DNA from: Paenibacillus hamazuiensis
GTDB lineage: Bacteria > Bacillota > Bacilli > Paenibacillales > NBRC-103111
Direction: 5' to 3'
NCBI RefSeq assembly: GCF_023276405.1
Contig: NZ_JALRMO010000001.1
Span: 3,720,001 to 3,784,000 of the forward strand
Length of the DNA: 64,000 nucleotides
Under the pieces are notes generated by a model. That model had not been told where the DNA came from. It saw only the letters and a program-made list of their open reading frames with translations, and made no database searches. Both the position numbers and the translations under genes were made by a program. Of the stretch, positions 4,056 to 51,271 are shown in pieces (within the stretch, counting starts at the first letter, position 1; every line of letters begins with the position of its first letter).

Positions 4056-4122
4056 CCCTAAATCAGAGGGGTCCATACCCCCTAAATCAGAGGGGTCCAT
4101 ACCCTAAACCAGGGAGGTCCAC
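4056..4122. repeat. Three tandem ~24-bp units
   Basis: Unit CCTAAATCAGAGGGGTCCATA appears twice almost exactly and a third time with changes (CCTAAACCAGGGAGGTCCAC). The array leads straight into the palindromic element that starts with a similar CCTAAATCCCCC motif, so it may have arisen by slippage at that element's edge. It starts 18 nt after the lyase stop codon. Confidence 0.7.
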
Positions 4123-4368
4123 CCCCTAAATCCCCCTGCAAGGGGGACCCCAGGCGCTCGGGCGCCCTGGACCCACCCGGTAGAGGGAATGTTTGCTGCT
4201 AGTTCGCGTTTGCCGGGCATGGATTTTTTACCTTCGGGTAAAAAATCACATGCCCGGCACGCTTTGCTTTTGGAGCAGTGATGCCGAGAGCGGCTGCGTG
4301 CCTCTTGCTCGCGTTTGGCTGCACGCATTTTGCTTGTGCAAAATAGCGTGCAGCCACGCTTTACTTTT
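4123..4368 (+). repeat. Dispersed palindromic element, copy 1
   Basis: Non-coding element of about 246 bp with four ordered parts. First is a C-run/G-run hairpin (CTAAATCCCCC to GGGGGACCCC). Second is the perfect palindrome-like GGCGCTCGGGCGCC block. Third is a long hairpin at 4206-4262, between GCGTTTG and CACGC. Fourth is a long hairpin at about 4311-4360 with the same flanks, followed by TTTACTTT. Related copies occur at 5073, 39914-40190, 40875-41161 (inverted) and 51027. No open frame is conserved between copies. Confidence 0.85.
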
Positions 4369-4447
4369 CCCGGATCGGTTCCGCCAAACTCCCTCGCCAA
4401 AGGGGGGGACCGTTGATGCTACGCAATATTGTCAGGTTATCCGGGAC

Positions 4448-39913: not shown

Positions 39914-40190
39914 TCCCCCCTAAATCCCCCCACTGGGGGGACCCCAGGCGCTCGGGCGCCCTGGACCCGCCCGCAGTACGAGACTGCTCGCTGCTAGTTC
40001 GCGTGTGTCGGGAATGGCTTTTTTGCTGTTTGGCAAAAAAGCCTATTCCCGACACGCTGCACGTTTGGTGCGATGCCTTAGGAGAAGGGTGCGTGCCTCG
40101 GGCTCGCGTATGTCCGGCACGATTCGGCTGACGCCGAATTGGTGCCGGATACGCTCATCTTTAGTTCTCTCGTGCCGCGTTTACTTCACT
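39914..40190 (+). repeat. Palindromic element, left arm (copy 2)
   Basis: Same ordered parts as the element at 4123: CTAAATCCCCC/GGGGGG hairpin, GGCGCTCGGGCGCC block, and two long hairpins (40001-40056 and 40106-40154) each closed by GCGTnTG and ACGC. It is mirrored by the right arm at 40875-41161 around the tandem array. Confidence 0.85.
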
Positions 40191-40874
40191 GAGAGCGGCT
40201 GTTTTGCCGCTCTCGGCGCTCTCCGACGGGCAGCCTGGAGCCTGAGAGCCGTTTTTACCGGCTCTCGGATCGCTCCCTCGCCCCTGGCGTCGCGCTTTCC
40301 GCCCCGAGAGCGGCTTTTTCCGCTCTCGGCGCTCTCCGACGGGCAGCCTGGAGCCTGAGAGCCGTTTTTACCGGCTCTCGGATCGCTCCCTCGCCCCCAG
40401 CGTCGCGCTTTCCGACCTGAGAGCGGCTTTGTGCCGCTCTCGGCGCTCTCCGACGGGCAGCCTAGAGCCTGAAAGCCGTTTTTACCGGCTCTCGGATCGC
40501 TCCCTCGCCCCTAGCGTCGCGCTTTCCGACCCGAGAGCGGCTTTTTCCGCTCTCGGCGCTCTCCGAAGGGCAGCCTGGAGCCTGAAAGCCGTTTTTACCG
40601 GCTCTCGGATCGCTCCCTCGCCCCCAGCGTCGCGCTTTCCGCCCCCGAGAGCGGCTTTTTCCGCTCTCGGCGCTCTCCGACGGGCAACCTGGAGCCTGAG
40701 AGCCGTTTTTACCGGCTCTCGGATCGCTCCCTCGCCCCTGGCGTCGCACTTTCCACCCCGAGAGCGGCTGTTTTGCCGCTCTCGGCGCTCTCCGACGGGC
40801 ATCTTGGCTCCCGAGAGCCGATTTTACCGGCTCTCAGATCGCTCCCTCGCCCCCAGCGTCGCTCCTGCTTCCCC
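40191..40874. repeat. Six tandem ~114-bp units, each with two hairpins
   Basis: Units begin at 40191, 40306, 40419, 40533, 40647 and 40760 (period 113-115). Each unit has hairpin 1 (GAGAGCGGC with GCCGCTCTC, loop TTTT or TTTG), a conserved GGCGCTCTCCGACGGGCAGC, hairpin 2 (GAGAGCCG TTTTTA CCGGCTCTC) and a GATCGCTCCCTCGCCCC tail. Differences between units fall mostly in the loops and the tail. The period is not a fixed multiple of three and no frame is maintained, so it is not coding. Confidence 0.92.
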
Positions 40875-41161
40875 GAGAGTAAAGCGTGTCCTGCATCAGT
40901 TTTTGCGCCAGCAAAAACGATGCCGGACATACGCGAGCCCGAGGCACGTATCTGCTCCTTAGGCATCGCACCGAAAGTAAAGCGTGTCGGGGCATAGGCT
41001 TTTTACCCGAAGGTAAAAAAGCCATGCCCCGACAGACGCGACCTAGAAGCAAGCAGTCCCGTGCTGCGGGCGGGTCCAGGGCGCCCGAGCGCCTTAAGGG
41101 CTTTGCGGAGCAAAGCCGGCTACGGAAGCCTGGGGTCCCCCCGTGGGGGGATTTAGGGGGG
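40875..41161 (-). repeat. Palindromic element, right arm (copy 3, inverted)
   Basis: Reverse complement of the element type: two long hairpins, the GGGCGCCCGAGCGCC block and the GGGGGG...CCCCCC-end. It carries an extra ~35-bp insert with GGGCTTTGCGGAGCAAAGCC (itself a hairpin) between the GCGCC block and the end hairpin. With the left arm it makes a 1.25-kb inverted structure. Confidence 0.85.
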
Positions 41162-41204
41162 CAATCTGATTTAGGGGAGGGGAAAGGCTGCCCACAACAA
41201 ATAA

Positions 41205-50992: not shown

Positions 50993-51026
50993 TTAGGCTG
51001 AATATGACTATATTCATGTGATGGAG

Positions 51027-51271
51027 CCCCTAAATCCCCCTGGTAGGGGGACCCCAGGCGCTTGCGCCCTGGACCCGCCCTGTAGGAGAGGCTGCCCGCT
51101 GCTGGTTCGCGTATGCCCTGCATGGATTTTTTGCTTTCAGGCAAAAAATCCTATTCCGGGCACGCTGTACTTTTTGCGCGATGCCTTAGGGGTGACGACG
51201 TGCCACGGGGTCGCGTTTGTCCGCCATGGTTTGCTGGCGCAACCCTATGTCGGACACGCTTTACTGTACTT
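51027..51271 (+). repeat. Dispersed palindromic element, copy 4
   Basis: Same order as copy 1: CCTAAATCCCCC/GGGGG hairpin, GGCGCTTGCGCC block, long hairpin at 51109-51165, GCGATGCCTTAGGGG linker, second long hairpin at 51213-51259, then TTTACTGTACTT. The linker GCGATGCCTTAGG is shared with the 40-kb copies. The rest of the gap to 51457 holds only the TetR promoter. Confidence 0.85.

Follow-up and report, generated by a model that had tools for sequence, protein, structure and literature searches.

Positions 39914 to 41161 of a 64,000-nucleotide window of the Paenibacillus hamazuiensis genome (the window being the whole stretch of DNA analyzed) form a composite in which two outward-facing copies of an interspersed repeat bracket six 113/114-bp hairpin units of an unrelated array. 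The evidence taken together makes it probable that the repeat is a non-autonomous, BOX-like modular mobile element, that its copies spread as DNA via exposed lagging-strand template, and that they are moved in trans by an enzyme other than a Y1 transposase.

Repeat finding and direct reading confirmed the position and general organization given in a preliminary description of this DNA, which had reported inverted arms around a six-unit array. The arms pair at 39915 to 39944 with 41132 to 41161 (90% complementary), at 39946 to 40050 with 40990 to 41094 (81%), and at 40092 to 40119 with 40921 to 40948 (100%). They had been described as alike, and both do carry a head and two hairpins, but only the right arm has an extra GGCTTTGC hairpin. 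The tandem array contains 5.9 copies with a register spacing of 113, 113, 114, 114, and 113, and each unit has two hairpins, GAGAGCGG/CCGCTCTC and GAGAGCCG/CGGCTCTC, with one mismatch in some. The array has 12 hairpins in all, and by reading there are 4 more in the left arm and 5 in the right. Strong self-complementarity had also been claimed, and folding as single-stranded DNA agreed: positions 39914 to 40200 scored z -8.4 against dinucleotide shuffles (0 of 200 as good), and the array, 40191 to 40862, scored z -9.1 (0 of 20 as good). Most of the spacings between units are not divisible by 3, so open reading frames running through the array are not credible, and protein coding was rejected there.

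Genome matches of the head identified each arm as one copy of the interspersed repeat (Table 1). The array is a different repeat; a version 67 to 70% identical occurs alone at ~1.401 Mb, and at 3.169 Mb a sequence matching at 73% lies beside other heads. Extra CCCCTAAATC-like boxes were seen ~20 bp outside the head, separated by ~10 variable bases, at window positions 4056 to 4122 and 41162 to 41180 and at loci L131, L135, L137, and L155.

Table 1. Repeat features located in the window
Feature	Position	Strand	Evidence
Left head: CCCCCCTAAATC, C-run hairpin, GGCGC hairpin, CCTGGACC	39914..39969	+	Covariance-model match 39915-39969, 78.8 bits; head alignment
Left hairpin 1, CGCG...ACACGC frame	40000..40057	+	Reading, folding; frame as in first-hairpin alignment
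Left hairpin 2	40105..40154	+	Reading, folding
Six 113/114-bp tandem units, two hairpins each	40191..40862	no strand	Repeat finding, blastn, folding
Right hairpin 2, inverted copy	40884..40935	-	Reading
Right hairpin 1, inverted copy	40982..41040	-	Reading
Right head with extra GGCTTTGC hairpin insert	41071..41161	-	Covariance-model match, 55.5 bits; reading
Second CCCCTAAATC box, 18 nt outside right head	41162..41180	-	Reading; upstream box seen at other copies too
Single-head, two-hairpin copy of the repeat	4121..4369	+	Reading, covariance model
Tandem ~22-24 bp CCCTAAATC boxes before the 4121 copy	4056..4122	+	Repeat finding, reading
Single-head, two-hairpin copy of the repeat	51025..51265	+	Reading, covariance model

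When the window element was compared with its own 8.80-Mb genome, 167 blastn matches were obtained. The end motif CCCCTAAATCCCC occurred in 108 exact copies, a count for which the control was void because the motif is identical when read backwards. A covariance model detected at least 148 head matches (E ≤ 0.01), 147 on the chromosome and 1 on contig 2, of which the weakest (E of 0.003 to 0.006) may be remnants; an interrupted real head at 7.016 Mb (L088/L349) falls outside this set. From these matches, 147 entered the orientation count and 146 entered copy parsing and the neighbor-gene analysis. Contig 2 itself (25 kb; L341 and L342), which carries one repeat copy, has genes that look chromosomal rather than plasmid-like by eye, and it may be an unplaced piece.

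Copies of the repeat begin with a sharp C-rich head (CCCCCTAAATCCCCC...), followed by a linker and then by ~96-bp hairpin-plus-linker units that each end in CACGCTTTAC. The head is ~53 nt long, or ~90 nt where the GGCTTTGC hairpin is inserted, and the number of units per copy is most often 2 and reaches 16. Recognized tails numbered two in 73 of the 146 parsed copies, one in 24, none in 25, and 3 to 16 in 24, counts that rest on a fuzzy motif and include a value of 13 at 3797348 that is inflated about twofold. Within one long array of the repeat the units are nearly identical, which argues that array growth is local. The left end of the copies is sharp and the right end fades past TTTACT; no target consensus was found at the ends of the 146 parsed copies, and among 121 copies the left/right match (mean of 4.01 versus 4.12 when shuffled) gave no sign of a target-site duplication, although old insertions could hide one. 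At L139, L147, and L150, heads are cut at or near GGCGC and continue into a common unrelated sequence (AATGTTGTCAGGTTAA or close to it), probably a nested insertion.

Several candidate origins were rejected. A 2.7-kb head pair (1355672+/1358357-) encloses open reading frames that look ordinary by eye, with ~400 bp between two stretches left unread, which argues against an autonomous element between those two heads, and no mover for the repeat was found. Plasmid, phage, or viral origin was rejected, since distant blastn searches of plasmids and phages returned no match to the element and the exact head pattern was not found in viral contigs. Rfam 15 gave no match in the window at the gathering threshold; at five loci searched at E ≤ 0.5 it gave no head or hairpin family, and apart from the T-box leader of L280 the sole hit was far below its cut-off. 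No such family is described in the titles and opening abstract lines of the open-licence papers listed on Paenibacillus repeats, and in open-licence literature the exact head motif appeared in a single paper, which concerns a human gene.

The composite lies between two lipoprotein paralogues that are 41% identical, and these had been thought possibly duplicated around it. The regulator gene of the window was found at ten named loci, all in Paenibacillus, and these were compared: no head was found in any, and 8 have both paralogues side by side, which speaks against local duplication around the element. Of the other two, L307 ends at a contig boundary and L303 has a single paralogue in the ~6.3 kb available. 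Absence from relatives, which had been proposed to speak against the element, is real at this site but is taken here as a sign of insertion; the orthologous proteins are only 46 to 82% identical, too diverged to show the insertion junction itself. Among the origins offered earlier, a mobile parasitic element fits best, given at least 148 head matches, patchy copy number, and empty sites. The suggestion of a non-coding RNA source keeps a part, in that transcribed copies may have an RNA effect beside this better-fitting mobile reading.

The orientation of the copies was compared with the direction of the replication fork. Replichores were set from dnaA at 6.861 Mb and from the GC skew of sampled flanks, which flips near 2.0 to 2.5 Mb and between 6.5 and 7.0 Mb. 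By this assignment, 132 of 147 chromosomal heads have their G-rich strand as the lagging-strand template. Because genes are also biased in orientation, replication and transcription were separated using the neighboring genes, with both neighbors confidently called by our own codon-score script for 95 of 146 copies. Where both neighbors were on the leading strand, 55 copies agreed with replication and 5 opposed it; convergent neighbors gave 20 and 5, divergent neighbors 4 and 0, and neighbors both on the lagging strand, a sparse class, 6 and 0. Not one of the 95 copies followed two codirectional genes against replication. In six relatives the bias was absent, with 15 of 33 heads following replication, a total that leaves out two G034 heads, one G068 head, and one on G016 contig 2, uses some rounded contig sizes, and includes many heads in outward pairs that cancel by construction. 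The bias in P. hamazuiensis may therefore be due to a single burst, or to selection, in its own lineage.

The hairpins keep their fold while their sequence changes. In an alignment of 63 first hairpins from this genome, 94.5% of cells were paired, double-change cells numbered 139 versus 30 in shuffles, and 16 of 21 pairs were changed on both sides; in slid controls pairing fell to 32 to 46%. The stems covary strongly, and both pairing and the conserved frame, CGCGTTTGTC...GACACGCTTTAC, are kept. Relatives have a similar frame with different stems. For example, beside nrdB, genomes G121 and G124 are 99% identical over 250 nt outside the head and 98% identical in head plus linker, yet 62% identical in the hairpin, for which the folding energies are -35.5 and -51.5 kcal/mol, respectively; this was the most extreme contrast among 15 pairs. 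A third version of the hairpin stands at this site in G126. Hairpin identity was 77% for G124/G126 and 88% for G119/G125, compared to 90% and 93% outside. G121, G124, and G126 have the stem base GTACCCC in common; it is the distal part of the stem that is replaced. In G027 and G029 (L036, L037, L041, and L045), tandem GCTTTGCGGAGCAAAGC hairpins resemble the hairpin inserted in some heads of P. hamazuiensis.

These nrd sites lie in and around an operon whose genes we take, from their protein sequences, to be nrdA and nrdB. The gap between the two genes was surveyed at 15 loci, after 15 of 30 genomes with only distant NrdB paralogues were left out, and it held a codirectional copy at 7, an inverted copy at 1 (G108), and none at 7. 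Among the 7 codirectional copies, those of G109, G113, and G018 have degenerate heads, and the G094 locus is cut by a contig end. In another set of 17 genomes, chosen for having heads and including two of those with a codirectional copy, the head adjoins the start of nrdB, at no more than ~50 nt in 16 and at ~115 nt in one. By position, the operon is on the lagging strand in both G108 and G100; the inverted copy of G108 fits replication, and the copy in G100 follows the genes, not replication. Since the nrdA-nrdB copy runs in most cases in the direction of the genes, selection may be what maintains it.

Beyond P. hamazuiensis, heads were found in 43 of 104 family genomes and 8 of 22 genera (E ≤ 0.001), several genera being represented by one weak match, and copy number is patchy among relatives. 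An even draw of 398 phylum genomes produced 7 matches at E ≤ 1e-4: this genome, five from one other family of the same order, and one that is marginal. Composite forms recur as well. Outward head pairs surround an unrelated tandem hairpin array at one locus shared by G107, G097, G112, and G113, and again in G057, and G016 has two head pairs with other DNA between the heads. One of the latter (L280:344-1558) is built around a T-box leader (RF00230, E of 3e-22) and recalls the BOX/T-box composite of pneumococcus.

Heads of the repeat are themselves the target of an IS110 element. At 11 loci (L343 to L353), CCCCCTAAA is followed by 1,606 bp identical in all 11 and then by AATC (ACTC in one); 9 copies are within a head and 2 interrupt the box that adjoins one, and all 11 share the insertion nucleotide and the orientation. 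Every copy has a longest open stretch of 336 codons, with more coding-like sequence in another frame, and the open reading frame matches PF01548 (DEDD_Tnp_IS110; E of 8.2e-26) and PF02371 (Transposase_20; E of 3.2e-13). Six further heads are interrupted at the same position by an insert whose ends are nearly those of the IS and whose length is 61 bp in the five cases measured. These short inserts (L220, L222, L225, L229, L236, and L341:16490) are likely a miniature derivative of the IS110 element with the same target. A script classed the 146 heads as 9 with the IS, 4 with the short insert, and 133 plain, with a wrong match in its L341 row; the first two counts are below the 11 and 6 found by direct reading, owing to a narrow window and to heads outside the 146. 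The 5' non-coding region of the IS contains both target halves, GGGATTT and CCCCCTAAA, on two sides of a predicted stem, and the target 7-mers occur nowhere else in the IS. Words from the element's own ends, the donor, recur elsewhere and so prove little. As judged from sequence and by analogy, a putative bridge RNA here would match the bridge-RNA logic of IS621, an element that lands in REPs according to the portion of the source consulted (PMC11208160).

From a repeat that is interspersed, structured, and fork-oriented in this genome, we infer the remaining steps of its spread. Copies would spread as DNA, probably at times when the lagging-strand template leaves the G-rich strand single-stranded and able to fold, and movement would occur in trans by an enzyme other than a Y1 transposase. 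Tandem units would grow through local duplication, and stems could stay paired via selection for folding, fold-back copying of one arm from the other, or both. A bolder proposal, regarded as unlikely, is that the hairpins are actively rewritten, both arms being replaced together while the frame (CGCGT..CGT / ACACGCTT) stays fixed. Either a dedicated enzyme or templated fold-back synthesis on single-stranded DNA at the fork would do this, yielding a self-complementary hypervariable cassette. In this proposal the same single-stranded state of the lagging strand would also serve as the intermediate in transposition, and the repeat would represent a new class of mobile DNA that is independent of Y1.

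A role at the RNA level accounts for part of the same evidence. If transcribed copies ended transcripts, or processed them in an RNase III-like manner, or protected them, the fold would be selected and not the sequence, and the nrdA-nrdB copy would be the ancestral functional site. The strong stem covariation suits such a cis-acting element, as do the 55 of 95 copies in sense with both neighbors, the heads adjoining the nrdB start in 17 genomes, and the codirectional copies at 7 of 15 loci. This reading is nevertheless judged unlikely, as orientation follows replication in 6 of 6 cases where genes disagree, the G108 copy runs the other way and no copy is present at 7 of 15 such sites, and no Rfam family matched a head or hairpin unit. 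A lone hairpin would work both ways round, so the inverted G108 copy leaves room for an RNA role of the stems. That the IS110 element or its putative bridge-RNA recombinase disperses the hairpin repeat is considered very unlikely: the IS in its eleven identical copies and the related short insert in six heads share one nucleotide, and the IS non-coding region carries both target halves, but 133 of 146 heads are plain by script, the heads serve as the IS target, and no IS-like ends were seen on the repeat. The pattern fits a parasite landing on the repeat, as IS621 does on REPs in what was seen of that report (PMC11208160), and the best reading is that the IS is a user of the repeat and not clearly its mover.

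Mobilization in trans by a Y1 (HUH) transposase, as a REP/REPIN or IS200/IS605-type element, would be consistent with the hairpins, the intergenic position, the lagging-strand orientation bias, and the lack of target duplication, and this genome has four Y1 matches, while of the 12 head-bearing relatives tested 4 have Y1 genes. This explanation is largely refuted and highly improbable, however, because PF01797 is absent in the other 8 (G001, G118, and G121 to G126), among them the sister species with 30 heads, and a Y1 match is present in 5 of 8 head-free genomes. In addition, no head or tail motif lies within 1.5 kb of the four Y1 genes of P. hamazuiensis, and there is no conserved GTAG/GTGG foot. 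Highly repetitive DNA could also point to an assembly or collapse artifact, but the locus is inside an 8.77-Mb contig, the repeat is present in 43 of 104 family assemblies, and stems and arrays differ between assemblies where read, leaving this explanation next to no probability.

A mobile repeat of this kind would add a large family, present in two families of the window's order, to the few modular bacterial repeats known. It also offers a case where replication and transcription direction are separable as causes of orientation bias, and nrd operons that are nearly identical yet differ in their hairpins, all well paired, allow a direct test of how perfect palindromes arise. The repeat head, which has taken up eleven identical insertions in this genome, is a natural target for a recombinase of the bridge-RNA type, and one that is precise and, as it appears, recent.

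Among known systems, the closest in organization is BOX of S. pneumoniae, which the portion of the source consulted describes as modular and hairpin-forming, with >100 copies and a variable middle module, and as judged parasitic with its mover unproven (PMC3049150). Both families are modular interspersed hairpins in more than 100 copies, and the head, 1 to 16 units, and tail seen here are a likeness of layout that does not bear on homology; stems here differ in sequence between copies and species. The same part of that paper places 60.8% of BOX elements on the leading strand, compared to a replication-strand share of 90% here, and reports one composite with a T-box leader (PMC3049150). Also different here are the outward two-head composites around other arrays and the lack of a detectable target-site duplication in 121 copies. 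REP/REPIN elements with RAYT are likewise palindromic, extragenic, high in copy number, and found in tandem clusters, as far as the consulted parts of the sources go (PMC3116915, PMC6006769, PMC3733652), and those parts agree that REPs too serve as landing sites of IS110-type elements; the repeat here differs in occurring without Y1 in eight carriers, in its long C-rich head, and in having no GTAG foot. Compared to CGTC-tagged REPs without a known transposase, the consensus here is TTTGTC, with TTCGTCC common at that place in relatives. A classical MITE with terminal inverted repeats is approached by the outward head pairs of some genomes, but most copies in this genome have one head, and no duplication of the target was seen. 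Integron attC sites, like the hairpins of this repeat, fold into hairpins in which the base is conserved and the tip varies. The IS110-family element here, with the repeat head as its target and both target halves in its 5' non-coding region, resembles IS110/IS621 elements and their REP targets, to judge from the part of the source consulted (PMC11208160), but here the IS is a passenger on the repeat, and the repeat itself is no IS110.
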